A DNA stretch of 64,000 nt from Phycisphaerales bacterium. Lineage in GTDB: Bacteria > Planctomycetota > Phycisphaerae > Phycisphaerales > SM1A02. Below, piece by piece: positions 20,362 to 60,435 of the stretch. The stretch lies in assembly GCA_029268515.1 (NCBI GenBank), contig JAQWNP010000007.1, positions 1 to 64,000 of the forward strand, written 5' to 3'. The notes under the pieces are model-generated. The model saw only the letters and a program-made list of their open reading frames with translations. It did not search any database and was not told the DNA's origin. The translations under genes and the position numbers were made by a program. Numbering within the stretch: position 1 is the first letter of the stretch; every line of letters starts with the position of its first letter.

Positions 20362-20921
20362 AGTGGGGTAGTTCTGTAGGGAGAGCGTTGAGTCCTGCTA
20401 ATTGAGTGTGGGGACTTCAGATTGAGAAGTTCATGGCTGGGGTGGGAGAGAGAGGCTCCTTTGGTCACCTAATGGTGTGTGGCACTCAGATTGTGATCCT
20501 AGAAATACCCTGCCCGGCTATTTCAGTCGGATTTCTCTGGCCATTCTGATGCCCGCTGTAAGAAGACTCACCCCTGCCACCCCCCACGCAAATCGAATTC
20601 ATGGTCATTGAGAGAAGGAAATAAAGCCCCCTCCCTGATTTGAGAGAAAGAAGAGAGAAAGACAGACGCCCCTGACTGGATAGGCATCCAGCGGGGGTGT
20701 TGGTCTATCGAAGGTTCTACCGTTGTTAAGAGGTTCAAGGGAACCACACCTGCAGGGTGACGCGTATCCAAAAGAGGTACGCCCTCATCGAACGCACCTG
20801 TTTAAGGATTCTGCTGGCCGCAGTGGTCTTTTTTTGAGTGCGTGTGCAATGAAATCATGGCAATGGCATATAGAAGCATGTAGAAGTCAGCGGGCTTGCG
20901 CGACGCCATTGGAGTCACATC

Positions 20922-21038
20922 ATGTTCTTGCCCATAATAATTTCGGTGTTCTTCATTGTGTTCTTCGCTGGTCGTTTTGTCTACTTTCAAATCGATCTCG
21001 ACTCACTGACCCCAGCCGTTGCTGAGGTCACGCCGTAA
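20922..21038 (+). CDS. 38-residue membrane peptide carrying a copied gene tail
   Basis: ATG 20922 has GGAG (20911-20914) 7 bp upstream. Residues 2-21 form one membrane span (FLPIIISVFFIVFFAGR). The last 16 residues, QIDLDSLTPAVAEVTP, equal the last 16 of the large membrane protein downstream (QIDLDSLHPAVAEVTP) except for one residue. The DNA of this tail is a near-perfect copy. Its stop TAA overlaps the ATG of the large gene (TAATG), so ribosomes ending here could restart there. I read it as what is left of an upstream duplicate of the large gene, possibly kept as a coupling leader. Expression is unproven. Confidence 0.5.
   Translation: MFLPIIISVFFIVFFAGRFVYFQIDLDSLTPAVAEVTP
20985..21038 (+). 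repeat. Gene-tail direct repeat, upstream copy
   Basis: Positions 20988-21038 match 23012-23062 at 49 of 51 bases, same orientation, both ending in the stop codon TAA. The two copies bracket the gene at 21038-23062. Similarity ends at the stop codon and fades within a few bases at the other side. Confidence 0.93.
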
Positions 21039-23062
21039 TGGTCAACAAGCAAGCCATCTTGGAGAATTCAAAGCTAGGCGCTGACGCCTATGCCAGGCCA
21101 GCGCCGCGCCCGGCCGCCTTGCCGCCGGAGGATGCGCCTATGTCACCGCATCTTGATCTGGGCAGCTGGCGCGAGTGGGATCGAGGGCTCCGTCATTATC
21201 GCGTCGCGGCGAGTTCTAAAAAAAGCTTGCTTTGGATCGGGGCGCCTCTCCTGGCGGTCCTCATCTTGTTGCATTTCTATCTTAGTTTCTGGATATATTC
21301 TTCGGGTATCGGCGTCATCATGCCGGCGTTCTTCTTGTGGTACTTGATTGACCATGCTTTGACTGCACGTCGACGGTTGTCGCCCCGCGACAACTTCTTT
21401 GACAAGGTGATCGCGAGGGGGGGGCTAGTTTGCCCTCAGTGTGAAGTTCCTTTGGAAGCAGCCTCGGCGCCAGATCGATGGTCATGCAGTCAATGTGCCT
21501 CGAGCTACACAGGTCAACAACTGACGCGCTTGATCGATGGCAAGTTCGCCAAATTTCGTGCGGCCGATGCCTCCCCGGTTTGGAAGTGGATTTATAGAAA
21601 GTTAGGTTTGCACGCTGCGACAGATCGCATTGCCCTGGCATTCTGTAGTGTGGAATTCGCGATCATAGGTCTAACTTTCTATCTCTTGCTCGCCAGTCTC
21701 TTTGGGTTAATTGAAGCAGAGATATTTGACCGTAATGTGAGTGTGTTCGCTTTCTTGCCACCTGCATTTATCATCATCGGGACGGTGTTAATCATTGGTG
21801 GCATCCGCTTAAGACGGGAGCCTTACAGTCGCTGCGCCCATTGTTTCTATACCGTGCCAGAGGGCATCGCTTTGCCTGATCGCTGTAGTGAATGTGGTTG
21901 CAGCTGGCATGCGCCTGGTGGGCTACTGCATCACCGCATTGAGTGGCGGCCTGTGGGGTATGGCGGATTGGTTTTTTCTCTTCTTGCCCTTCTCTTGCTT
22001 GGCAACGGCATGTATCGTGATTGGCAGCTGAACCAAGCACTCCAAACGCCCACCACCGCAACAGCATCAGCGCTCATTGCGGGGCTTGGGCAAGACAATG
22101 GCTATTGGGGCGATGATGCCAAGGCGTTGCAGGCGGAACTGCACCAAAGGAACCTGACGCCCCTTGAAGATCAGTCGCTCGTGAAGGTCTATATCACTCG
22201 TCTAGAGGGTGATGAATCACTCGGGAATCTGGGCTGGAATTGGTTGATCTCAATGATAGATAGTGGGCAACTTGATGCAGCCACGGAAGATCGAGTCGTC
22301 CGCGCCAGCCCTTCAATTTCTTCTTCCTATGGAGTTGACTGGAAGTATGAGGTGCCATCCCGACCATCGATTTCACTTGTTCGTCACGCACAGATTCCTG
22401 TCCAAGCGATTGCATTGCAAGTGGTTATTAATGGTGAAGAGCAAGAGTGCTCGATTGGGCCATGGAAACGCGGCAATCGTAGGGCAGCGATACAGGTGGC
22501 GCCGTATGTGCCTCGCAAAAGCAGAAATCTGATTGAGGTCACGGTCTGGTTTTCCGAAGCCGGTTTCAAGATTGACAACGAGGCGCATCTCGCCCCAGCT
22601 TATCTCCGTGAGCACGCACCATTGGGTGTCTGGTCAGTATCAACCGAGTTTGAACAACTCGCACTGGAGGTTCCAAAGTTTGCCTTTGGTGATGTTCACT
22701 TTAGAAGCTACATACACCCTGATTCAGTTCTTGGGGGGTATGGGGCTGCACGCAAAAAAGAGGTGACGATCAAAGCGCCGAAACTTACCTCACAACAGGC
22801 TATCGAGCTTGTTGATGCCAAAGCGGCACTGGGTGCGCTGGTCAAGGATCCGATCTTGCAGGTGGCCCCAGTCACGGAATCTGGTCAATTGATCTGGGAT
22901 GAAGCGGTTATTGAAGTGGTGCGCTCCTCAGGCAGTACGGAATTAGATCAGCTGGTGGTGAATTACATGGAGCTCGCCGATATCGAATTTGGTGTCAGTT
23001 GTACACATGTGCAAATCGATCTCGACTCACTGCACCCAGCCGTTGCTGAGGTCACGCCGTAA
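21038..23062 (+). CDS. Multi-span membrane protein with two zinc ribbons, function unknown
   Basis: 674 residues that I do not recognise as a named family. Hydrophobic spans lie near 64-86, 91-108, 198-226, 234-257 and 308-325. Two four-cysteine zinc ribbons lie between spans: Cys132/135 with Cys150/153, and Cys266/269 with Cys283/286. The 350-residue C-terminal part is soluble, with beta-rich stretches (VPVQAIALQVVINGEEQECS-like). ATG 21038 overlaps the stop of the 38-residue ORF (TAATG) with GAGG 10 bp upstream; ATG 21140 has a stronger ribosome site (GGAGG, 8 bp) and is a real alternative, which would remove an Ala/Pro-rich 34-residue leader. The paired zinc-ribbon and membrane layout is frequent in planctomycete hypothetical proteins. 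Confidence 0.85.
   Translation: MVNKQAILENSKLGADAYARPAPRPAALPPEDAPMSPHLDLGSWREWDRGLRHYRVAASSKKSLLWIGAPLLAVLILLHFYLSFWIYSSGIGVIMPAFFLWYLIDHALTARRRLSPRDNFFDKVIARGGLVCPQCEVPLEAASAPDRWSCSQCASSYTGQQLTRLIDGKFAKFRAADASPVWKWIYRKLGLHAATDRIALAFCSVEFAIIGLTFYLLLASLFGLIEAEIFDRNVSVFAFLPPAFIIIGTVLIIGGIRLRREPYSRCAHCFYTVPEGIALPDRCSECGCSWHAPGGLLHHRIEWRPVGYGGLVFSLLALLLLGNGMYRDWQLNQALQTPTTATASALIAGLGQDNGYWGDDAKALQAELHQRNLTPLEDQSLVKVYITRLEGDESLGNLGWNWLISMIDSGQLDAATEDRVVRASPSISSSYGVDWKYEVPSRPSISLVRHAQIPVQAIALQVVINGEEQECSIGPWKRGNRRAAIQVAPYVPRKSRNLIEVTVWFSEAGFKIDNEAHLAPAYLREHAPLGVWSVSTEFEQLALEVPKFAFGDVHFRSYIHPDSVLGGYGAARKKEVTIKAPKLTSQQAIELVDAKAALGALVKDPILQVAPVTESGQLIWDEAVIEVVRSSGSTELDQLVVNYMELADIEFGVSCTHVQIDLDSLHPAVAEVTP
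23009..23062 (+). repeat. Gene-tail direct repeat, downstream copy
   Basis: This is the true 3' end of the zinc-ribbon membrane protein gene. It matches 20985-21038, as described for the upstream copy. Confidence 0.93.
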
Positions 23063-23077
23063 GAGCCGCCGCTCTTA
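23060..23077. terminator. Palindrome containing both convergent stop codons
   Basis: A perfect 7-bp inverted repeat (TAAGAGC, 4-nt loop CGCC, GCTCTTA). The left end is the TAA of the plus-strand membrane protein gene; the right end is the TAA of the minus-strand aldo/keto reductase. There is no T run, so it is at best a weak two-way transcription stop or an mRNA-end stabiliser. Confidence 0.45.
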
Positions 23078-24031
23078 TCCGCCTAAGATCGCCGCGCAGC
23101 GTTCCAGCACACTTTCATCCAACGTCAAATCACTGGCCGTGATGTTCTCTTTTAATTGCTCAGGCTTACTAGCCCCAACAATTACGGAACTCACCTCGGG
23201 GCGGCGCAGGCACCAAGCCAAGGCCAAGGTCGCCAGCGGCAGCCCCATGCCATCAGCAACTTCTTTAAGACGTGCGACGATCGCATGGTTCTTTTCGGTG
23301 AGGCGCGGTTGTAAGAACTGGCCCTGCTCTGGATGCGCGGCGCGGGTTCCATCAGGCACGCCCTCAGCATATTTGCCGGTGAGCATGCCTTCGCCTAAGG
23401 GAGAGAAGGCCACGATGCCCATGCCCATCGCTTTGCAAGTGGGGAACGCCGACTCTTCCCAATGGCGCTCCAGCATGTTGTATTGCGGTTGGCTACTGAT
23501 CGGCAGATGCCAGCGATGCTCTTCGCAGAGGCCGTGGGCATCAGCAATCTGTTCGGCGGTCCATTCACTGACACCCCAATAGAGAATCTTGCCTGTATTG
23601 ACCAGATCGTTCATGGCTCGGCAGGTCTCGATCAGTGGTACTGACGGGTCATAACGATGACATTGATAGAGGTCGATGTAGTCGCACTCAAGGCGGCGCA
23701 GCGAAGCGTGGCACTGATCAAAAATATGTTTGCGACTCAGTCCACGATCATTGGCACCGGGAAAGGGCCACTCGCGTGACATGGGCCAGAAGACTTTGGT
23801 GGCCAGGACAATTGCATCACGGCGCAATGACTTGATGGCCTTGCCTAAGAGTTGTTCGGCGTCACCCTGGTCATAGACGTTGGCGGTATCAAAGAAGTTG
23901 ATACCGTTGTCATAGGCAGTGTTGACCATCTGCTGGCCATGCTGGGTGGATTGATCTTTGAAGGTCAGCCAGGAACCGAATCCAACTTCGGAGACCTGCA
24001 AACCCCAGCGACCAAGTTGTCTGTATTTCAT
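23075..24031 (-). CDS. Aldo/keto reductase (voltage-gated K-channel beta/YghZ-like)
   Basis: A 318-residue NADPH-dependent reductase of the AKR barrel family. The catalytic tetrad is visible: FFDTANVYDQG (Asp and Tyr), LATKVFWPMS (Lys) and DLYQCHRYD (His). The cofactor end also fits: FSPLGEGMLTGKY, and SSVIVGASKPEQLKEN at the C-terminal phosphate site. Sequence resembles the Kv-beta/YghZ subgroup, which reduces aldehydes such as methylglyoxal; the substrate here is unknown. It is divergent from aat, with 66 bp between starts, and converges on the zinc-ribbon gene through a stop-codon palindrome. Confidence 0.92.
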   Translation of the reverse strand: MKYRQLGRWGLQVSEVGFGSWLTFKDQSTQHGQQMVNTAYDNGINFFDTANVYDQGDAEQLLGKAIKSLRRDAIVLATKVFWPMSREWPFPGANDRGLSRKHIFDQCHASLRRLECDYIDLYQCHRYDPSVPLIETCRAMNDLVNTGKILYWGVSEWTAEQIADAHGLCEEHRWHLPISSQPQYNMLERHWEESAFPTCKAMGMGIVAFSPLGEGMLTGKYAEGVPDGTRAAHPEQGQFLQPRLTEKNHAIVARLKEVADGMGLPLATLALAWCLRRPEVSSVIVGASKPEQLKENITASDLTLDESVLERCAAILGG

Positions 24032-24789: not shown

Positions 24790-25863
24790 ATGGAATGCGG
24801 CCTCGTTGGTTTTAGTTCAACAGGAAAAAGTACGCTGCTGGCGGCGCTGGTTGGCGGGCAGAGCAAAATCAGTTCATCTGGCTCAGCGATGAAGCCAGCG
24901 ATGGGGATGGCGCCTGTGCCTGACCCACGCTTAGAGACAATCGCAGCGCTGATTCCGCCAGAGAAAATTATTCCCGTCAGTTTGACGCTGATCGATATTC
25001 CTGGTCTGCCGTCAGGGCAAGATCCAAAGCAACTCAATAATGTGCTTTCTCACTTGCGTCAGGTCGATGCGCTTTGCTTGGTGCTCCGTTGCTATGACGC
25101 CCCTGGTCTGCCAGAAGCTGATCCAGTAGCGGAGGCACGCGCTTGGGATGACGAAGTTGTGTTGGCAGATCTCATTGTGGTGGAAAGCGCTCTTGATAAA
25201 GCAAAACGCGCTGCTCGAGGGCGTGATCCCGAAGCGCCGGCGCGACAATCGTTGCTGGAAAAGGTTTCTGCCACATTAGAAGCAGGTATGCCGGTTCGTG
25301 AAATGGCCAAAGAACTCGATGACACAGAAACTCGTTTGTTGAGTGCCTATGGCTTGATTACTTCAAAGCCAGTGCTCTTTGTGGCCAATGTCGGAGAGGA
25401 TGACCCCAGCGGGCAAGGGGCGGCAGCGACAGCGCTGGCCGAGTACGCGGTTTCCAAAGGTGCTTTGAGTGTGCCGGTTTGCGCCGTACTTGAAGCAGAG
25501 ATTGCCGAGATGGATGTGGATGACCGCAATGAGATGTTAGAGGGACTGGGTCTCAGCGAGCCGGCCATTGGACCACTGGCTCGTGCGTTGTATCAGTCTC
25601 TCGGGTTGGCGTGTTTCTATACCGCTGGCGAAAAAGAGGTCCGTGCGTGGACGATTGTTCATGGTGCCACGGCGCCGCAGGCGGCAGGGGCCATTCACTC
25701 TGATATCGAACGCGGCTTTATTCGCGCCGAGTGTTTTCATGTTGATGATCTGGTGGCCCATGAGAGTGAAAAAGCTATTCGCGGAGCGGGCAAGCTTCGC
25801 AGTGAAGGCAAGTCATACGTCATGCAAGATGGTGATGTGGTGCACTTTCTTTTTAATGTCTAG
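24790..25863 (+). CDS. ychF: YchF/OLA1-family GTPase (divergent)
   Basis: A 357-residue Obg-related P-loop NTPase that binds ribosomes; many members prefer ATP. Domains in order: G domain with Walker A GFSSTGKST (7-15) and G3 LIDIPGLPSG, a coiled-coil insert (about 130-190), and a C-terminal TGS domain (VRAWTIVHGATAPQAAGAIH, then SYVMQDGDVVHFLFNV). It differs from typical YchF: Walker A is normally GLPNVGKST, and the KGEGLGN stretch after G3 is shortened. ATG 24790 has AGGAG 9 bp upstream. Its last 41 coding bases are repeated 655 bp downstream. Confidence 0.88.
   Translation: MECGLVGFSSTGKSTLLAALVGGQSKISSSGSAMKPAMGMAPVPDPRLETIAALIPPEKIIPVSLTLIDIPGLPSGQDPKQLNNVLSHLRQVDALCLVLRCYDAPGLPEADPVAEARAWDDEVVLADLIVVESALDKAKRAARGRDPEAPARQSLLEKVSATLEAGMPVREMAKELDDTETRLLSAYGLITSKPVLFVANVGEDDPSGQGAAATALAEYAVSKGALSVPVCAVLEAEIAEMDVDDRNEMLEGLGLSEPAIGPLARALYQSLGLACFYTAGEKEVRAWTIVHGATAPQAAGAIHSDIERGFIRAECFHVDDLVAHESEKAIRGAGKLRSEGKSYVMQDGDVVHFLFNV
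25822..25862 (+). repeat. ychF-tail direct repeat, original copy
   Basis: The last 13 codons of ychF plus the start of its stop codon. They match 26477-26517 at 40 of 41 bases in the same orientation. The two copies bracket the small membrane gene at 25897-26253 and its frameshifted neighbour. Confidence 0.95.
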
Positions 25864-26253: not shown

Positions 26254-26430
26254 TATTTCTCGGCCTTCCTGATATGACGCGTCACTTCGTGATGTAGTTT
26301 AGAATCATTGGGCTTTGCAAAGGTGATCTCTAAGTAGTCGGAAATATATCCGAGCGGAACCACAAGCAAAGAACAGACGAGGCTTAATTTTGCAATTCGT
26401 CTATAGGATAGAAGCTGTTCTTTTCTTCAT
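26253..26430 (-). pseudogene. Frameshifted remnant of a third small membrane protein
   Basis: ATG 26430 opens MKKRTASIL and then hits a stop. The paralogue at 26562-26900 begins MKERTASILKRVAKVSLICS. One extra base here (TAGA in place of AAA between the CTA and CGA codons) breaks the frame; past it the match resumes as RIAKLSLVCSLLVVPLG, then runs unrelated to TAA at 26255-26253, which overlaps the next ATG. The ribosome-site region (CGGAAG, 7 bp) is still intact, and similarity to the paralogue continues into the leader at 26431-26476. Confidence 0.7.
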
Positions 26431-26476
26431 GCGGCGTCTTCCGATTCAAAATTGTTTAGTGCACATGTTCGGCGAT

Positions 26477-26517
26477 ATGCAAGATGGTGATGTGGTGCAC
26501 TTTCTTTTTAACGTCTG
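26477..26517 (+). repeat. ychF-tail direct repeat, displaced copy
   Basis: Forty of 41 bases equal the end of ychF (25822-25862), starting exactly at ATG CAA GAT and ending at the stop region. There is no ychF sequence upstream of it. On its left it abuts the leader of the frameshifted membrane gene, which marks the likely duplication breakpoint at 26476/26477. Confidence 0.95.
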
Positions 26518-26561: not shown

Positions 26562-26900
26562 TTATGCAGTGAGTCCCCAAACCAGTACAAGGGCAAGTAT
26601 CAATGTGCCGCTGGTGATGGTAAGGAATAGGGATGCTTTGCGGTGTTGCTTACTGCGACAGCTGAGTAGTCCGCAGACAAAGGTAATTATTAAACCCGGA
26701 AGCACGACAAAGAACAAGAGTAGCCAGTCAATGAAGAGCACTAAACAAAAAAGATTTAATCTTGCGTCGGAGGATGTTTTGTCGCTGGGATTGTCACCGC
26801 TTAAGGCGAGCCCTAAGAATCCGAGCAGAACCGCAAGCAAAGAACAGATGAGGCTTACTTTTGCAACTCGTTTTAGGATAGAAGCCGTTCTTTCCTTCAT
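26562..26900 (-). CDS. Small membrane protein, family member 2
   Basis: 112 residues with hydrophobic spans near 14-34, 50-78 and 90-110. Paralogue of the protein at 25897-26253 and of the remnant at 26253-26430. AGGAAG lies 7 bp before ATG 26900, a good ribosome site. No known domain. The gene lies between the displaced ychF tail and the BamE-like gene; no promoter was identified. Confidence 0.62.
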   Translation of the reverse strand: MKERTASILKRVAKVSLICSLLAVLLGFLGLALSGDNPSDKTSSDARLNLFCLVLFIDWLLLFFVVLPGLIITFVCGLLSCRSKQHRKASLFLTITSGTLILALVLVWGLTA

Positions 26901-27094
26901 GAAACGTCTTCCTTTTTAAAGATTTTTAGTCAATGCGTAGGCGATAAGTAAAGCGAAGCTGATTGGCTATGCGTTCTTCTTAAACACTCTCATTGACTGG
27001 CGATCTGAGTCCGGCTGAGAAGTAGTTTATAGTGAAACAGTTGCCCGCATGCCCGTGCGACTAATCGATGAGCTCATCTGAGAAAGGTCATTCC

Positions 27095-43305: not shown

Positions 43306-45072
43306 ATGGCCAGAAAACGTAAGAAACTTGGCGAGATCCTCCGTGAACGTAAGTTTGCGACGAAGGAGACCCTGACTCAAGGGTTGGAGATCTCGCATGG
43401 CTCAGGCAAGCGATTAGGCGAGGCCATGGTTGAAGCAGGCCTTCTGGATGAAAGCAACCTTGCGGAAGCCTTGGCTGAACAGTTTGGAATGGAATATGTC
43501 GATCTGAATTCAGATGATATTGAGAGTCGCTGCGATATGTCGCTTGTGCCAGGCGACATGGTTAAGAAACATCTTATCGTTCCGATGGAGAAGGTTAGTG
43601 GTCGCATGAAGCTCGTCGTGCACGACCCAATGGATCTTGAACTTCTCGATCTCCTTCGCTTTCGTTTGAATTGCGAAATTGATACTGCGGTATCCAGTAA
43701 GTCACAGTTGCGAGAATTCATTGAGGGCGTCAATGCTGCAGAGGGGCAAGCTGGCGATGGCGGTAGTTTGTTTGGTGGGCAAGAGTCACTGGTGACTGAT
43801 TCGGTTGATGTCACCATGGATCGCTCAGTCGATACATCTGTTGATGCATCTGTCGACATTGCTGCTGGCGATGGTGATGATGCGCCTATTATTCGCTTGG
43901 TCACGCGGCTTATCACTGAGGCCGTTCGGACCAGGGCAAGTGATATTCATGTTGAGCCAATGAATGATCGCGTTCTGCTTCGGTATCGGATTGATGGTGT
44001 TTGCCACGTGCGTGACAATCTGCCCAAGCGCATGCAACAAGCAATGCTTGCTAGATTAAAACTCATGGCGGGTGTGAATATTGCAGAGCGTCGAATACCC
44101 CAAGACGGTCGTATCAAGATGACTGTTGATGAAGACGTTGTTGATTTTCGTGTCAGTGTCTGCCCCGCGTACCACGGTGAGTCAGTGGTGCTTCGTATTT
44201 TGCGACCTGATTCGGTGCGTATTGGTTTAGAGAATTTGGGTTTTGAAAGCGATCATCTTCAGACATTCAACAAGATTATTCGCCGGCCCAACGGTATCTT
44301 CCTCGTAACGGGGCCAACTGGTTCTGGCAAGACGACGACGCTCTATTCTGCGTTAGATATCTTGAATCGCCCTGATCGTAAGATCATCACAGCTGAAGAT
44401 CCGATTGAATATAGTTTTGCTGGTATCAACCAGTGTCAAGTGCGTGAGCAGATTGGCCTGTCTTTCTCATGGATTCTTAAGTCCATGCTTCGCCAAGCGC
44501 CGAACATTATTCTGATTGGTGAAATTCGTGACCGGGAAGTCGCGGACATTGCTATTCAGGCAGCATTGACAGGTCACTTGGTCTTTTCAACGTTGCATAC
44601 CAATGACGCGCCTTCAGCCATGACGCGTCTGATTGATATGGGTGTGAAGCCATACTTGGTGGCGAGCTCAATTCAGGCAGTCATGGCTCAGCGATTGTTC
44701 CGCGTGCTTTGCGATCATTGCAAGGAGCCCGATACCGATGTACCTCCAAAGGTGGCAGAGTTGGTTGGTCTGGAGCCAGAAGACCTTCGGTCAGGTGCCA
44801 TTTGTAAGCCTGTCGGATGTGCCAAATGTGGCAAAATCGGCTTCCGAGGCCGGCGGGCCCTGTTTGAGTTAATGAAATTGAATACGGAGATTCGAGAATT
44901 GGCCTTCCAGCAGGGTACTGTGGGAGATATCCGGGCTGCGGCGATTCGTTCTGGTATGCGAGAGCTCGTTGAGGATGGCAAGATGAAGATCTTGCGAGGC
45001 GAAACGACGCCGGTCGAGGTCGCGAGGTTCGCGCAGGCTGATAGTCTGTTAGAGGCAAATATCGACGTCTGA
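43306..45072 (+). CDS. Type IV pilus/type II secretion assembly ATPase 1 (GspE/PilB family)
   Basis: A 588-residue hexameric ATPase that drives pseudopilus assembly. In order: N-terminal GspE/PilB domain (LGEILRERKFATKETLTQGL, ALAEQFGMEYVDL); a linker with four SVD triplets (about 168-188); N2 domain (SDIHVEPMNDRVLLRYRIDG); ATPase core with Walker A GPTGSGKTTT (Lys342), Asp box ITAEDPIEY, Walker B IILIGEIRD and His box STLHTNDAPSAMTRL; zinc knuckle Cys469/472 and Cys505/508. GAGAGG-AACT precedes ATG 43306. It lies 34 bp before pilT. Whether it serves a pilus or secretion system is open. Confidence 0.93.
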   Translation: MARKRKKLGEILRERKFATKETLTQGLEISHGSGKRLGEAMVEAGLLDESNLAEALAEQFGMEYVDLNSDDIESRCDMSLVPGDMVKKHLIVPMEKVSGRMKLVVHDPMDLELLDLLRFRLNCEIDTAVSSKSQLREFIEGVNAAEGQAGDGGSLFGGQESLVTDSVDVTMDRSVDTSVDASVDIAAGDGDDAPIIRLVTRLITEAVRTRASDIHVEPMNDRVLLRYRIDGVCHVRDNLPKRMQQAMLARLKLMAGVNIAERRIPQDGRIKMTVDEDVVDFRVSVCPAYHGESVVLRILRPDSVRIGLENLGFESDHLQTFNKIIRRPNGIFLVTGPTGSGKTTTLYSALDILNRPDRKIITAEDPIEYSFAGINQCQVREQIGLSFSWILKSMLRQAPNIILIGEIRDREVADIAIQAALTGHLVFSTLHTNDAPSAMTRLIDMGVKPYLVASSIQAVMAQRLFRVLCDHCKEPDTDVPPKVAELVGLEPEDLRSGAICKPVGCAKCGKIGFRGRRALFELMKLNTEIRELAFQQGTVGDIRAAAIRSGMRELVEDGKMKILRGETTPVEVARFAQADSLLEANIDV

Positions 45073-46684: not shown

Positions 46685-48460
46685 GTGGCAAAAACCACAG
46701 CATCTCAAACAGACACCGTTAAGGTCAGCGAGCTTAAGGGACGTCGTATTGGGCGTGTCTTGACCAAGCTGGGCAAAGTCACGCGCGAGCAGGTGCATGA
46801 GGCATTGTCCGTTCAGCGTGCTCGTAAGGAGAAGGGTGATAAGGCGCTCCTGGGTGACTTACTTCAAGAGATGGGCGTCATCACAGCGGATGATGTTTTA
46901 GCAGCCGTCGCAGGCCAGGCCGGGATGCGAATGGTCAATATTGAGATCGATGAGATTTCAGCTGAGGCGATTGAAGCGCTGCCAGTGGAAACGGCCAATA
47001 CCTATCAGATTATTCCTCTGTCATTTAATGAGGCGACGCGACAGATTTCGATCGCGATGAAGAGTCCAGACAACTTTCGCGCGGTTGATGACCTGCGTTT
47101 GTTGATGGGATTCAAAGTGGATGCAGTGGTGGCACCAGCAAGCCAGATTGATGCGGTGCTGGAAAAATTCTACAGCGAGCAAAAGGCATCGATGGCCGAC
47201 ATGATGGCCGAGCTCGAAGGAAGTGATGAGCTTGCGGTATTGGAAGGTCGGGGTGATTCCATCGACCTGGAAGTGCTCGCAAGCGCTGCAGAAGATAACA
47301 AGGTTGTTCGTTTACTCAATATGGTTTTGCTGCAAGCCATTAAGGACAAGGCATCGGATATTCACTTTGAGCCCTTTGAAGAAGAGTTCAAGATGCGTTA
47401 CCGCATTGATGGTGTTCTTTACGAGATGATTCCTCCGCCGCAGCACTTGGCGCTGCCAATTGTGTCTCGCATTAAGGTGATGGCCAATCTCGATATCGCT
47501 GAACGGCGGCTTCCGCAGGATGGTCGTATCGAGTTGGTGGTTAATAATCTTCCAATCGATCTACGTATCTCAGTATTGCCGACCATGTTTGGTGAGTCAG
47601 TCGTGATGCGTGTGCTCGATCGTTCGAATGTGCAGTTGAGCCTCAATAAGATTGGGCTGCGGGATGACGAGTTAGAAGAGATGGAAGGTCTGATCCGCAA
47701 GCCAAACGGAATTGTCTTGATCACTGGGCCAACCGGCTCCGGTAAGACAACGACCTTGTATGCGGCGTTGACGGAACTCAATGAGGCCGATACGAAGATT
47801 CTTACTGCTGAAGATCCTGTGGAATATGACATTGATGGCATGATTCAGTGTCAGGTGAATCTTGATCAAGATCTCACATTCGGCCGTTTGCTTCGCTCCT
47901 TCTTGCGTCAAGATCCAGATATTATTCTGGTGGGTGAAATTCGTGACCTTGAAACAGCGCAAATTGCTATTCAGGCTGCGTTGACGGGCCACTTGGTGTT
48001 TTCAACGATCCATACCAATGATGCGCCATCTTCAGTGCTCCGGCTGGTTGATCTCGGCGTCGAAAAATTTCTGTTGACGGCAACAGTTGAAGCGATTGTG
48101 GCGCAGCGATTGGTGCGTCGTGTATGCATCGCTTGTAAGGAAGAATTTACGCCAACAGATGAAGAGCTCTTGGAGCTCGAACTGCGGCGCGATGCTGTTG
48201 AAGGTCGGACCTTCTTCCGCGGCCGTGGCTGTGAAGCGTGTAATAACAGTGGTTACAAGGGTCGCTTGGCAATCTTCGAGATCATGCCGCTGGATGACAA
48301 GATTCGTAACATGATTATGGCCGATGCATCGACAGCGGTATTGCGTGAAGAAGCGCGTAAGCGAGGCATGCGTACGTTGCGTGAATCGGGGCTCTTTGCC
48401 ATCTTTGAAGGGCAAACAACGATTGATGAGGTCGTCCGCGAGACGATTGTTGAAGAATAA
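46685..48460 (+). CDS. Type IV pilus/type II secretion assembly ATPase 2 (GspE/PilB family)
   Basis: 591 residues, paralogous to ATPase 1. N-terminal domain (RIGRVLTKLGKVTREQVHEAL, cut as VTREQVHEAL; AAVAGQAGMRMVNI), N2 domain (KASDIHFEPFEEEFKMRYRI), Walker A GPTGSGKTTT (Lys354), LTAEDPVEYDI, DIILVGEIRDLET, STIHTNDAPSSVLRL, and a zinc knuckle CIACK ... CEACNNSGYKG. I choose GTG 46685 because AGGAG ends 7 bp upstream; an ATG at 46634 in frame has no ribosome site. It starts a tight run into pilC and the pseudopilins, so this copy is the likely motor for them. Confidence 0.92.
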   Translation: MAKTTASQTDTVKVSELKGRRIGRVLTKLGKVTREQVHEALSVQRARKEKGDKALLGDLLQEMGVITADDVLAAVAGQAGMRMVNIEIDEISAEAIEALPVETANTYQIIPLSFNEATRQISIAMKSPDNFRAVDDLRLLMGFKVDAVVAPASQIDAVLEKFYSEQKASMADMMAELEGSDELAVLEGRGDSIDLEVLASAAEDNKVVRLLNMVLLQAIKDKASDIHFEPFEEEFKMRYRIDGVLYEMIPPPQHLALPIVSRIKVMANLDIAERRLPQDGRIELVVNNLPIDLRISVLPTMFGESVVMRVLDRSNVQLSLNKIGLRDDELEEMEGLIRKPNGIVLITGPTGSGKTTTLYAALTELNEADTKILTAEDPVEYDIDGMIQCQVNLDQDLTFGRLLRSFLRQDPDIILVGEIRDLETAQIAIQAALTGHLVFSTIHTNDAPSSVLRLVDLGVEKFLLTATVEAIVAQRLVRRVCIACKEEFTPTDEELLELELRRDAVEGRTFFRGRGCEACNNSGYKGRLAIFEIMPLDDKIRNMIMADASTAVLREEARKRGMRTLRESGLFAIFEGQTTIDEVVRETIVEE

Positions 48461-54579: not shown

Positions 54580-57500
54580 ATGAAGTACATCGACTTACCA
54601 ATTCGTTTAACCGATCGTCGCCAATGGCGCGGCAACGCCATGATTTTGGTGGCCGCGATGTTGACGTTGCTGGTGATTATGGCCACCGCCTATATCTCAC
54701 GCACTCGGGCGACGCGCTCCACCGCGGCCGCTCACCAGAGCGCAGCCCAAAGAGAGGGCGCCGGCGAACATGTTGGCGCCATGCTGGCTGAAGAGTTGGC
54801 CCAGGCCCTGTTTGCGCGGCCACTGGCTGTGCCAGAAGGTGGGTTCTCTTTTGATGCTGATGCTGACAACTATGTTGGCAATTCTAATAATGCTCGAATT
54901 CAATCAGGTGCTCAGCTTGTGGGTGATGGCACTGGCTTTCCCCAGCCTGGTGCGGTGGGGCCTGACGATCGCGGTGGCCGCTACAGCGCCGATCGCTGGC
55001 ATCCGTTTAATCACGCGCCCATGCATGTGGCCCCAGTGACCAACTTGCCCGACGATAATGGCGTGATCTTTCCGCCGGTAGGTCCTCGTAACGCGATCGG
55101 CAACCCCGGCTTTGGTGATAGTCGCTGGCTGCGCTCGACCGAGCCGCTGCGCTGGGCCAGTAATTGGCAGACCACCGGTCAGACCAGTGAAGATCTCAAT
55201 GCCTTTTCACACTGGAAGCACATGACCTATCTGGCCCGGCCCGACAATGGTTGGCGTCTTTGCACAGACATTTCAAATGTGGGGCCGCAAACCACGCTGA
55301 TGAACTTGAACTTGCCCGTGGAGCAATGGCTGCCGACACCACCGGGTGGTGTCAGTGATGAGGGGTATGCGCTTTTAAACAGCACTTCAGGTAATGCCAC
55401 CCTCAATACCACGCCCGATCCGAACAATCCTGAGCAAACGCTCTTTGATGCTGCCTGGGATAACTGGTTTAGTGGTAACACAGTGGCGATCGATCAAAGT
55501 GGGGCCCTTGCTTACGCCGATCCTACCTTGGCGCCACCCAACCACTATGACCTCAGCGATCTTGATGGTGATGGCAACAACTACAACTTCCGTGACCGTC
55601 CTGAAGCGGCGTACGCCAAGTTTGACACGGCGGGCAACATCAACTGGCGCTGGTATGTTGAGCGTCGATTGAACGATACTGATGGTGATGGCTTTACCGA
55701 TTCCTTTTGGTGGATTCCACCGCTGCCGATCAAAGATGGGGTGCATCATGTGGTTGGCGTTTCAGTCGTTGATCTCAGTGGTAAGCTGAACCTCAACACC
55801 GCGACGATCTTCCGTCGCAATGAAGATTCGCGATATCAAAATGATGCGGGCTTTGTGCTTCCCCAAGCGACTGCAGGGCATACCCCAGCTGATGTGGCGT
55901 TGGTTGGACAAGAAGTGCCGCCGTTAATTCATAATGGTGGCGGCGGATTTCCACAGCAAGGTGGTGGAAATATTTCGCAGGAAGAGATTACTTCTTCAAC
56001 GGGTAGTTTTAACTGGAATACAGGTTTCTTTGACACCCCCATGAACCAACCTGGTTGGTTTCAAAGGCAGCCCGTGGATAATGCCGAGCGATGGGTTGAA
56101 TACTCTGGTGGCGGTAATGGGCATCAAGTGATTTGGCCACATCTAGAGTGGTATGCCAACACCGATGGGGTTCCGACTGACGGTATGCCGCGCTGGCGTC
56201 TGTTTGGCAACTACACTGATGATCCGTTCCTTGAGCTCTTTGGTCTCAACGGCAACCTTGATTTCTGGGATGAAGCGTATGACGACACACAGAACTCAGA
56301 AATTCACCCTTGGGCGACACAGCAAGGGCGGTTGCGCTATTGGAACCTCAAAGGCAGTCGCCCTGATGATCCACTGGCAGGTTTGACCAACCTTGATCTC
56401 AGTGAAGAGCTTGAGTTAGCAGCGTATCACGGCCAGAATCGGCCTTATCAATTTTCAGAGCTGGAGAACTACACCCACTGGGAGGGACCTAGTTGGGCAC
56501 AAATTGGACCACTGCGAGGTCGTAATAATCGAGCGGAAACAAGTGAGGGCCTCGGTCAGCTCAGTAACCAGCAGTTGGTCTTTGATAATCGCCGCAAGCT
56601 CACTGGCTATAACGGCGCTCGCAATGATGAATTGCCAGCGTGGCTGCGCTTCTCAAAGCGTCGTCCCAATCTCTTGACCCCTGATCAGTGGGATTATCCC
56701 GACGCGATTGAAGGAGCCAGTGAATTTCGCCGCGTCATGAACGAGTTTGATGATCAGCGCGGTTGGAAGCTTGACCTGCGCGAAGATCGTTTTCCCAACG
56801 GAGAGAGCCGGCCCCGGCTTGATAATGATCCTACTACTGGTTACTTGTCACTCTCGCAGCGTTTATCGCCAACCTTAATGATGGCTTTGACCGATGGTCC
56901 TGAGATGACCTTTGGTGCCGGTGCTTTTGGCGATGATCTTGATCCAGCCGCGCCGTACCACAGTTACTTTGGCGTGTATAACAGCGTTACAGATGAGGCC
57001 TATCGCAATACCCGTCGTTTGGCGGCCGCCTATGCTGCTAACATTTTGCAGTGGCGCGACAGTGACCAAGATCTCAAGTTAGTCGAAGCGGTACCGCTGC
57101 CAGATGTTGGCTTGCATCAACCCGAGTTGTATGCCGGTGGTAGTCAACCTGTTGATACCAATCAGATGCAGATGAACAATCGCTACTTCCTGGGCGTGGA
57201 GCCTCAGCCGTTCTTGCTAGAAGCGTTTGTGGCCCATGTGCATTCCGCGCAAGAGATACCCGAGCGAGATGAGCTTGGTATTCCTTACCGAGATGAAGAC
57301 CAAGAAGCCAATACCGTCTTCGAGAATCCATATGGTCCTTGCGCCAATGGCACTGGTGGTTCAGCCACTCCACAGTCAACACCGGGTCCCAACGATCCGA
57401 ATTGGCAAAGCACGATTGTGGTGGTTCAAATTGCCAACCCCTTTGATGTTGCTATTGACCTTTCTGATTATGTGATTGATGTGTTTGGTCAAGAGTTTGA

Positions 57501-60435
57501 AATAGCTGATTTGGTTGGGACGCCAACCGCAGACACGACTCAACAGCCAGCCTTCTTAGCCGAGCAGCTCTTGTTGCCACCTGGTACGCCTGAAGCGCCG
57601 TATACGGCGGTCTTCTATGCCATGGATGAAAATATCAGCCGAATAGTTCAGCAGGGGGCCAGTGCTGAGAGCTCTGAGCAAGATCCACTGGAACAACCGT
57701 GGATCGACTTCCTTGATCTCAAGGTGAAGCCCATTTGGACCAACGCGGTACAAGCGCCGACAGCCGGCTCGCCGGTCGTCGACTTGCCTTCTTATGACTA
57801 TGACGATCCTAACAGCACGCCAACACTGCAGCCACTGGGGCCGCAAGGCCAAATGCAGGGGTCACTGGTGGTCAACGTGAACCGTGTACATGAAGAGCTC
57901 TTGTTGCCACCAGCATGGCGCACCTATCGCTGCTGGTATGACGATGAACTTGACAGTGTGGCTTCGCCAACAATTCAGCTCAAGCGTTATGTGGCGCCGA
58001 TTCCCGTCCAGCAAGATGTGCCCGGTTCAGGTGGGCAGCAGCAAGCCCCGCCACTGGTCGTGGTTGATCGGCTTGATGACCCAAGTTGGAGCTATACCGG
58101 TGGCAATACACTGAGTTATGACTTTGATGAAACCTTTGCCGGTGCCATTCATGAGATGGGTGAAGACGTTGGTCAAATTCTGCAGGATGCCCCAACCCTG
58201 CCAATGAACAGTTATTTGAATCCCAATCAGTCACCTTCGCCTTATGAGCCTTCTGGGCTGACGCTTGATCAAAAGAACGATGCCGATCGTTTTACCCATT
58301 GGACACAGTGGGTGCGGGCTTCACGCAGTTGGGGATACGACCGTGATGGCAATGGTACGTATGATCCTGATGAGCGTAACCCGCGTTATGTCTTTGCTGA
58401 TCGAGTGATTACCAAGCCAGCTCAAGTCACCGTCGATGTACCAGATGCTTCGGGGGCGCCGGTTGCGTACAGCGATCTTTCCTTCTTTGACGGTGAATCC
58501 GGTATTCCCAATCAAAGTCAAACAGGCAATGATGCTGCAGGGGATCCACTAAGCGGTTTGAAAGGTGGCCAGCGCTTCAACATGACCGAGGCGCCTGATG
58601 ATGCGAATTTTGAAAATGGTCTGACAAACCCACGTGAAGCCTGGTTCCTTCGTGACTACTGGCCTGCCGGAGCAGGCGTTGATTTGAACGGGGCTCAGTC
58701 GCTCAGTGCGCGCAAGCCAACCTTCTTCAACTTCGCGATCGAGAAAACACCTGTGAGTGAGTTTGATCCGGAAGATGCAATCACATGGTCCATTCCCGAT
58801 AAGGGTTGGTATGGGCAAGCTCAAGCCTCATCTGGTGGTACGGGTGAACCGCCTGAGTTCTCTCAAGAAGCGACCGTGGAGGATCTGGAGAGCGATGAAA
58901 TTGAACTAGAACTGACCGGTAACTTTGATCGTTCCGCCAGCCGCTATTGGTATCCCATGCAAATGTTGCAGAAAGACTGGAACTTTGAGCAGGTTGGTGA
59001 ACTCAACAACGTGTGGCTCTTTGGTCATGAAATTGCCATGCGCAATGGAACTGACTACGCCACCACCTTGACGACCTTCTCAGAGTTTATGAGTCGAGAA
59101 GAAGAGGATCTCACTGGCGCCGATGCCCAGGTGAACCGCCTGCGCGTCAAGCCGACGTTCAGTGGCACACCAGCAGATGATATTAGTCCTGCTCCAGCCT
59201 ATAACTGGGGCGCTAATGCCGGCACTATTGGCGGCGCCTCAAATGTGCTTGACCCAACCGATCCGCGCTGGCAACAACCAGTGGTGCCCATGGGCAGCCG
59301 TGTCTTTGATGCCTTTGTCTGTGACGGGCTTGGTGAAGTCTATGACATCAACAATGACTTCAAGGTGGATCAGATCGATCGTCAGGAGATGGCCGATTTT
59401 CGTTTCTCTAACGCCAATGGTTTTACTGGCAAGTCGACGCCGGGTTTGGTCAATGTCAATACCGCCACTGTTGAAGTGCTGCGAGCATTGCCGAACATGT
59501 TTAAGGCGGTCCACATGGACTACAATGAGAAGTTAGATACCTGGGGCTCAGCGGCTGTTGATATGAACCCCCGTGTCGGTGTGCCTGAGTCCATTATTCA
59601 TTACCGTGATTTACTTGGCGGAGCCAACATTGTGGATATTGGTAGTGGGCCGGAGATTGGTACTGATGAAACCGGCTATCGCAATGGCCCCTGGTATCAC
59701 ACCCGTGGTACGCGCTGGCGCAGTCCTGCAGGACTCGGCGGTACAGAGCCTCTGGTCGATAACATGCGCGATGAGCCAGGTATTACTTCGATTGGTGAAT
59801 TGCTTTTGCTTGATCGCCCTGGGGCCAGCCCCTTTGGTGGTAGCCATGACTTTGATGGTTTTGCATTCAACTATTCTGCTGACGCCAGTTGGACACCCGT
59901 GGATCGCTATTTGAGTTCTGATGGCTACCGTATTGGCTTTGCAGCGTTGGACCCATTCCGTGTCAATGACACACAGCTCGGTGGTGGTTTTAACGATACT
60001 GATGGTGATGGTCTTCCTGATGCCGATACAGGCCCCATGAGTTCTATGGATGGTTTGCCAAGTTACAGTCGTGGTTCACTTGGCGCCTATCTCTCGACCG
60101 ACAGGCAGACCACACATGACCCCTATGCCAATGGATCAGCGTCTGGCCAGGAACAGTACCTGGGCGATCGTGTCTCCAGTGACAGTGAAGAGGCCAACTT
60201 GCTGTTCTCGGGCATCTCGAATCTGATTACCACACGAAGTGACCTGTTCTTGGTCTACTTCAATGTGCGTGGCTTCAAAGAGACCCGCTACCCAGACGGT
60301 ACGATCGGCTGGGACGCCACCAATAAGGATGCCATTGTTGATGAAAGCCGTTGGGTCATGATCGTCGATCGCAGTGAGGTCGAGTCGCCCAGCGACGAGC
60401 CGCGTATTCTTCTTTTGGAGCGTGTCGACAACTAA
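54580..60435 (+). CDS. Giant GspK-like pseudopilin-associated protein
   Basis: 1951 residues, against about 300 for typical GspK. The N terminus has a membrane span (AMILVAAMLTLLVIMATAYI) preceded by basic residues, and a GspK-style start. Two GspK-like helix-hairpin segments are seen: GKLNLNTATIF near 401 and GLVNVNTATVEVLRALPNMF near 1623. Several Asp-rich calcium-loop motifs occur (near 328, 366, 1254, 1588 and 1806; for example DTDGDGLPDADT). A region near 945-1010 (VQIANPFDVAIDLSDYVIDV) resembles a lamin-tail-like beta domain. ATG 54580 has GCGAGGTG upstream and follows the GspJ-like gene; a longer ORF from 54331 overlaps that gene. A strong terminator follows. Confidence 0.8.
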   Translation: MKYIDLPIRLTDRRQWRGNAMILVAAMLTLLVIMATAYISRTRATRSTAAAHQSAAQREGAGEHVGAMLAEELAQALFARPLAVPEGGFSFDADADNYVGNSNNARIQSGAQLVGDGTGFPQPGAVGPDDRGGRYSADRWHPFNHAPMHVAPVTNLPDDNGVIFPPVGPRNAIGNPGFGDSRWLRSTEPLRWASNWQTTGQTSEDLNAFSHWKHMTYLARPDNGWRLCTDISNVGPQTTLMNLNLPVEQWLPTPPGGVSDEGYALLNSTSGNATLNTTPDPNNPEQTLFDAAWDNWFSGNTVAIDQSGALAYADPTLAPPNHYDLSDLDGDGNNYNFRDRPEAAYAKFDTAGNINWRWYVERRLNDTDGDGFTDSFWWIPPLPIKDGVHHVVGVSVVDLSGKLNLNTATIFRRNEDSRYQNDAGFVLPQATAGHTPADVALVGQEVPPLIHNGGGGFPQQGGGNISQEEITSSTGSFNWNTGFFDTPMNQPGWFQRQPVDNAERWVEYSGGGNGHQVIWPHLEWYANTDGVPTDGMPRWRLFGNYTDDPFLELFGLNGNLDFWDEAYDDTQNSEIHPWATQQGRLRYWNLKGSRPDDPLAGLTNLDLSEELELAAYHGQNRPYQFSELENYTHWEGPSWAQIGPLRGRNNRAETSEGLGQLSNQQLVFDNRRKLTGYNGARNDELPAWLRFSKRRPNLLTPDQWDYPDAIEGASEFRRVMNEFDDQRGWKLDLREDRFPNGESRPRLDNDPTTGYLSLSQRLSPTLMMALTDGPEMTFGAGAFGDDLDPAAPYHSYFGVYNSVTDEAYRNTRRLAAAYAANILQWRDSDQDLKLVEAVPLPDVGLHQPELYAGGSQPVDTNQMQMNNRYFLGVEPQPFLLEAFVAHVHSAQEIPERDELGIPYRDEDQEANTVFENPYGPCANGTGGSATPQSTPGPNDPNWQSTIVVVQIANPFDVAIDLSDYVIDVFGQEFEIADLVGTPTADTTQQPAFLAEQLLLPPGTPEAPYTAVFYAMDENISRIVQQGASAESSEQDPLEQPWIDFLDLKVKPIWTNAVQAPTAGSPVVDLPSYDYDDPNSTPTLQPLGPQGQMQGSLVVNVNRVHEELLLPPAWRTYRCWYDDELDSVASPTIQLKRYVAPIPVQQDVPGSGGQQQAPPLVVVDRLDDPSWSYTGGNTLSYDFDETFAGAIHEMGEDVGQILQDAPTLPMNSYLNPNQSPSPYEPSGLTLDQKNDADRFTHWTQWVRASRSWGYDRDGNGTYDPDERNPRYVFADRVITKPAQVTVDVPDASGAPVAYSDLSFFDGESGIPNQSQTGNDAAGDPLSGLKGGQRFNMTEAPDDANFENGLTNPREAWFLRDYWPAGAGVDLNGAQSLSARKPTFFNFAIEKTPVSEFDPEDAITWSIPDKGWYGQAQASSGGTGEPPEFSQEATVEDLESDEIELELTGNFDRSASRYWYPMQMLQKDWNFEQVGELNNVWLFGHEIAMRNGTDYATTLTTFSEFMSREEEDLTGADAQVNRLRVKPTFSGTPADDISPAPAYNWGANAGTIGGASNVLDPTDPRWQQPVVPMGSRVFDAFVCDGLGEVYDINNDFKVDQIDRQEMADFRFSNANGFTGKSTPGLVNVNTATVEVLRALPNMFKAVHMDYNEKLDTWGSAAVDMNPRVGVPESIIHYRDLLGGANIVDIGSGPEIGTDETGYRNGPWYHTRGTRWRSPAGLGGTEPLVDNMRDEPGITSIGELLLLDRPGASPFGGSHDFDGFAFNYSADASWTPVDRYLSSDGYRIGFAALDPFRVNDTQLGGGFNDTDGDGLPDADTGPMSSMDGLPSYSRGSLGAYLSTDRQTTHDPYANGSASGQEQYLGDRVSSDSEEANLLFSGISNLITTRSDLFLVYFNVRGFKETRYPDGTIGWDATNKDAIVDESRWVMIVDRSEVESPSDEPRILLLERVDN

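Follow-up and report, generated by a model that had tools for sequence, protein, structure and literature searches.

A 38-codon reading frame next to a predicted zinc-ribbon membrane gene of a Phycisphaerales bacterium: a probable tandem copy that kept both ends and lost its interior

Several described systems involve duplicated or partial gene copies. The genes mtrA-1 and mtrA-2 of methanogens are tandem paralogues which were partly homogenised by gene conversion (PMC4632066). In amplifications of Salmonella, duplication can be followed by internal deletion (reviewed in PMC3857721). In the pilE/pilS system of Neisseria, antigenic variation is achieved by gene conversion from partial gene copies (PMC3899283). 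A literature search retrieved these related mechanisms and no report on the locus described here. It lies in a stretch of 64,000 nucleotides (hereafter the window) corresponding to positions 1 to 64,000 of contig JAQWNP010000007.1 from a Phycisphaerales bacterium (assembly GCA_029268515.1).

The locus contains a 674-codon gene (21038-23062, plus strand) which is predicted to encode a zinc-ribbon membrane protein, and the last 51 bases of which occur a second time upstream. The upstream copy of this tail (20988-21038, plus strand; QIDLDSLTPAVAEVTP*) and the downstream copy (23012-23062, plus strand) form a 51-nt direct repeat with a spacing of 2024 nt. They are identical at 49 of 51 positions, while about 5e-18 such matches would be expected by chance in the entire window. 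As the two tails differ at two bases, they represent distinct copies. Further copies of the tail are absent from the 3.2-Mb genome, in which an 18-nt core of the repeat, searched with up to two mismatches, matched at these two places only, and the tail pattern was not found in the viral contigs searched. The upstream copy forms the end of a 38-codon ORF (20922-21038, plus strand), which overlaps the 674-codon ORF by one base in the sequence TAATG. A GGAG motif is located 7 nt ahead of the ATG of the short ORF, and a GAGG motif 10 nt ahead of the ATG of the large gene. The best 19-residue hydropathy value in the 38-mer is 2.4, which corresponds to one membrane span. An earlier, sequence-only reading of this DNA had claimed the match of 49 out of 51 bases, a 38-codon ORF with ribosome site and membrane span, and the overlap of its stop with the ATG of the full gene. 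Direct comparison of the sequences bore out each of these features.

The same reading had suggested looking for a tandem pair of the gene in close relatives. Such a pair is present in a contig of 3289 bases from an uncultured Phycisphaerae bacterium (CALCOW010000491.1, hereafter C491), which was assigned to a genome bin of the window's genus (G001). The upstream copy, cut by the contig end, comprises at least 166 codons, and the downstream copy is complete with 699 codons. The former ends with QIDLDSLNPAVAEVTP (...VQIDLDSLNPAVAEVTP). The bases after its stop, TAATGGTCAACAAG..., are those found in the window too, and the junction of the tail with TAATGG is common to both. The position of the 38-codon ORF is thus occupied in the relative by a longer copy (at least 166 amino acids) with the same tail and junction. 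The downstream copy of C491 begins with MFFIIIFSVFFIVFFAGPFVY after a 64-base spacer. In order to gauge the strain distance, the syntenic downstream flank was used, which consists of an aldo/keto-reductase-like gene, named from its sequence (23075-24031, minus strand). The first 622 nt after the stop of the zinc-ribbon gene are identical to C491 at 600 positions (96.5%) without any gap, so that both loci are positional equivalents. Other contigs of the G001 bin match the window with 69-82% identity over their main matches. Given this difference, C491 probably comes from a closely related strain of the window species and was binned wrongly, or else represents transferred DNA, and any assignment to a host is tentative; whichever its origin, the C491 locus is a very close relative of the window locus. 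The comparison of the tandem pair draws on this single relative and on a 3.3-kb contig without the N-terminal part of its upstream copy. Among 181 genomes of the family, the DNA search retrieved, outside of the window genome and the G001 bin, the reductase flank only, and the protein search gave one further distant relative passing the threshold of 1e-8.

The homology of the 38-codon ORF to the family gene is found at both ends. The leader with the ribosome-binding site (GACGCCATTGGAGTCACATC; 20902-20921, plus strand) is identical to the leader of the downstream copy in C491 (L034 548-567), and leader and head together are identical to the head of that copy at 78 of 86 nt. The head comprises the first 21 codons (MFLPIIISVFFIVFFAGRFVY; 20922-20984, plus strand) and contains the membrane span. 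The tail is homologous to that of the window gene, as given above, and is identical to the tails of the upstream and downstream copies in C491 at 49/51 and 48/51 nt, respectively. The complete ORF reads MFLPIIISVFFIVFFAGRFVY-FQIDLDSLTPAVAEVTP, the head of the relative being joined in frame and directly to its tail, with the exact join (20984/20985) known from one assembly only. Since it carries both the head and the tail of the relative's gene, the 38-codon ORF is very probably an upstream paralogue which lost its interior in frame and kept both ends. The earlier proposal of an upstream tandem copy reduced to a remnant stands in this respect, as the upstream tandem partner is present in the relative, where it shares both the tail and the TAATGG junction. 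The part of the proposal according to which only the tail was kept has to be abandoned, because the head survives too.

The ends of the gene copies are much better conserved than their bodies. The window protein shows 40% identity with the complete copy of C491 and 45% with the part of the upstream copy present on the contig. The two copies of C491 share only about 31% protein identity, yet 50 of their 51 tail bases are alike, and all four tails are identical at 48-50 of 51 positions in DNA (94-98%). The edge of this conservation is sharp: the 30-nt blocks just before the tail agree at 4-12 of 30 positions within a genome, which is near chance, as opposed to 49/51 and 50/51 in the tails. The tail has most likely been homogenised or exchanged by recombination, because selection at the protein level alone is not expected to preserve silent positions. 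Tails match at 49-50/51 within a genome and at 48-49/51 between genomes, with too few sites for a distinction. An alanine codon is GCC in both window tails and GCG in both tails of C491, which fits concerted change within genomes, albeit as weak evidence from one site. As near-identical tails are found on C491 proteins of such low identity, tail identity does not date the duplication. The 49/51 match in the window is therefore no sign that the duplication there was recent; such similarity of tails belongs to the locus as such and carries no information on how old it is.

The following history is proposed. The ancestor would have carried a tandem array of at least two divergent copies of the zinc-ribbon membrane gene, the ends of which were kept alike via recombination while the bodies were diverging. 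In the window lineage, an in-frame deletion in the upstream copy would have brought the final 17 codons directly behind codon 21 of the head, removing about 660 codons if the lost copy was as long as the gene of the relative. A microhomology of CTAC may have been present at the break points, as judged from the relative, where the head contains GTCTAC and the codons before the tail TACTAC. We infer the break points, on the basis of the relative's sequence, as well as the order of events and the recombination mechanism. The upstream copy in C491 (L003 2787-3287, minus strand) appears to be missing some 90-120 residues that the other copies have (approximately 429-550 in the window protein). This shortened copy is perhaps an intermediate stage of the same decay.

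The surviving gene differs from the relative's copy at its beginning. Its codons 1-17 (MVNKQAILENSKLGADA; 21038-21088, plus strand), referred to as the junction segment, are identical at 46 of 51 positions to the spacer between the tandem copies of C491. The surviving gene lacks the membrane span found at the N-terminus of the copy in the relative, and both proteins align well from about RPAALP onward. Since its first 17 codons correspond to the spacer and the span is missing, it seems that leader and head of the surviving gene have been lost, and that it now begins at the junction ATG overlapping the stop of the remnant. As a possible alternative, the junction segment would not be a plain spacer but form the head of another gene type, re-joined at a shared GACGCC. 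The 45 bases that precede the first copy agree with the junction at 19 positions (shuffle p 0.018), which is too weak to be used.

Translation of the surviving gene is probably coupled to that of the 38-codon ORF, because the stop of the remnant overlaps the start of the survivor and the remnant keeps both leader and ribosome site. Both transcription and translation would begin from the first leader, and ribosomes that have completed the 38-mer would re-initiate on the large gene at TAATG. The remnant would then furnish the pair with leader and ribosome site, and this offers a plain reason for its retention. The 51-bp repeats could also recombine and delete the gene between them, in which case the product would consist of one tail followed by GAGCCGCCGCTC.

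Sequence searches with the surviving protein in Pfam, NCBIfam and PDB produced weak matches only, all of them below the cut-off. The structure predicted from a three-row alignment (mean pLDDT 47, pTM 0.26) was too poor for a fold search. Hydropathy and pairs of CxxC motifs indicate that the gene product is most likely a zinc-ribbon protein that is anchored in the membrane and has a soluble C-terminal domain. More distant homologues display both zinc ribbons and the membrane core, and those found elsewhere in the order appear to have neither the N-terminal span nor the C-terminal extension that bears the tail.

Alternative explanations of the locus were considered. It is conceivable, but rather unlikely, that the locus is a hypervariable cassette site, where strains within one planctomycete species exchange or differentially lose divergent zinc-ribbon bodies between constant ends (leader and head, junction, 51-bp tail). 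The gutted 38-codon copy would then be a by-product supplying a leader, a ribosome site and a membrane anchor peptide.

It is improbable that the 38-codon ORF is the older form, namely a small membrane-peptide gene in which a 2-kb body was inserted between head and tail in the lineage of the relative. The apparent lack of N-terminal span and tail in homologues elsewhere in the order would make head and tail add-ons to the core, and the bases flanking the body may be read as a short target duplication (CTAC). However, the window gene and both copies of the relative carry the tail after a shared C-terminal extension, neither a transposase nor an integrase is encoded between the repeats, and no free-standing homologue of the 38-mer was found in the 181 genomes of the family. 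The polarity of the event, deletion as opposed to insertion of a body, rests on one genome pair and on this absence of free-standing 38-mers.

An assembly artefact, which the sequence-only reading had named as a result that would speak against its proposal, is very unlikely. Near-identical ends of tandem genes are a typical site of collapse in short-read assembly, and a tandem array could have been collapsed here with the interior reads dropped. This explanation is opposed by the recurrence of both the tail-TAATGG junction and the leader-head segment in the independently assembled C491, and by a join which is in frame and window tails which differ at two bases. That the 51-bp repeat is a one-off copy of the tail unrelated to a second gene (templated insertion or duplication of an attachment site), as its end at the stop codon and a separate tail echo nearby (25822-25861 / 26477-26516) might suggest, is hardly credible and largely refuted by the tandem pair of C491, since at this upstream position the relative has a genuine second copy, in which tail and junction are the same, the ORF also has a head homologous to the gene family, and no integrase lies between the repeats.

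Two further candidates were rejected. For an integrative element with duplicated att sites, the zinc-ribbon gene is alone between the repeats, and scans of that gene revealed no integrase or transposase. For silent cassettes of the pilS type, the window has a single remnant without a body, and the genome has no further copies of the tail.

Additional repeats were observed in the window. A gene at 24790-25863, judged by eye to be GTPase-like, has 40 bases at its end (25822-25861) that are found again 655 bases further downstream (26477-26516), with 39 of 40 identical. Around this tail echo, the segments 26348-26460 and 26819-26930 are copies which are 81-91% alike and apparently represent the head of a small membrane protein gene on the minus strand; this pair may be another gutted tandem copy. 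A direct repeat of 221 bases with 71% identity (44482-44702 and 47897-48117), 3.4 kb apart, probably reflects paralogues or repeated domains. A last repeat (55664-55704 and 59984-60024), read by eye, would encode NDTDGDG-type motifs, as in calcium-binding repeats.

With the 38-codon ORF regarded as the internally deleted upstream paralogue, the locus is a case of ordinary gene birth-and-death caught part-way, with local homogenisation, and not a new kind of element. It illustrates a route to a short coupled ORF, which would be the leftover of a tandem copy that lost its interior and kept its start signals and tail, rather than a designed leader peptide. Near-identical ends on strongly divergent bodies, next to flanks of 96.5% identity, suggest that genes turn over rapidly in this little-studied group of bacteria, and make the locus a simple place to look for variation at the strain level.

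Compared with the systems described above, the locus shares with pilE/pilS the variable bodies, the shared ends and the partial copy adjoining a full one. Nothing here points to a silent store, to switching or to a surface antigen, however, and the remnant lacks a body that it could donate. The likeness to mtrA-1/mtrA-2 is that of two paralogues in one prokaryotic operon, where one segment is kept alike and another differs, the latter being a membrane span in mtrA. In mtrA, however, the operon has a known function and homogenisation has affected an entire domain over long periods, whereas in the present locus it is confined to some 51 bp of the 3' end and apparently the head, and one copy is gutted. 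As in the amplifications of Salmonella, a segment would first have been duplicated and then have lost its interior. In contrast to that case, the deletion proposed for the window lies inside a single gene copy and is in frame, leaving a short ORF which overlaps the next gene.
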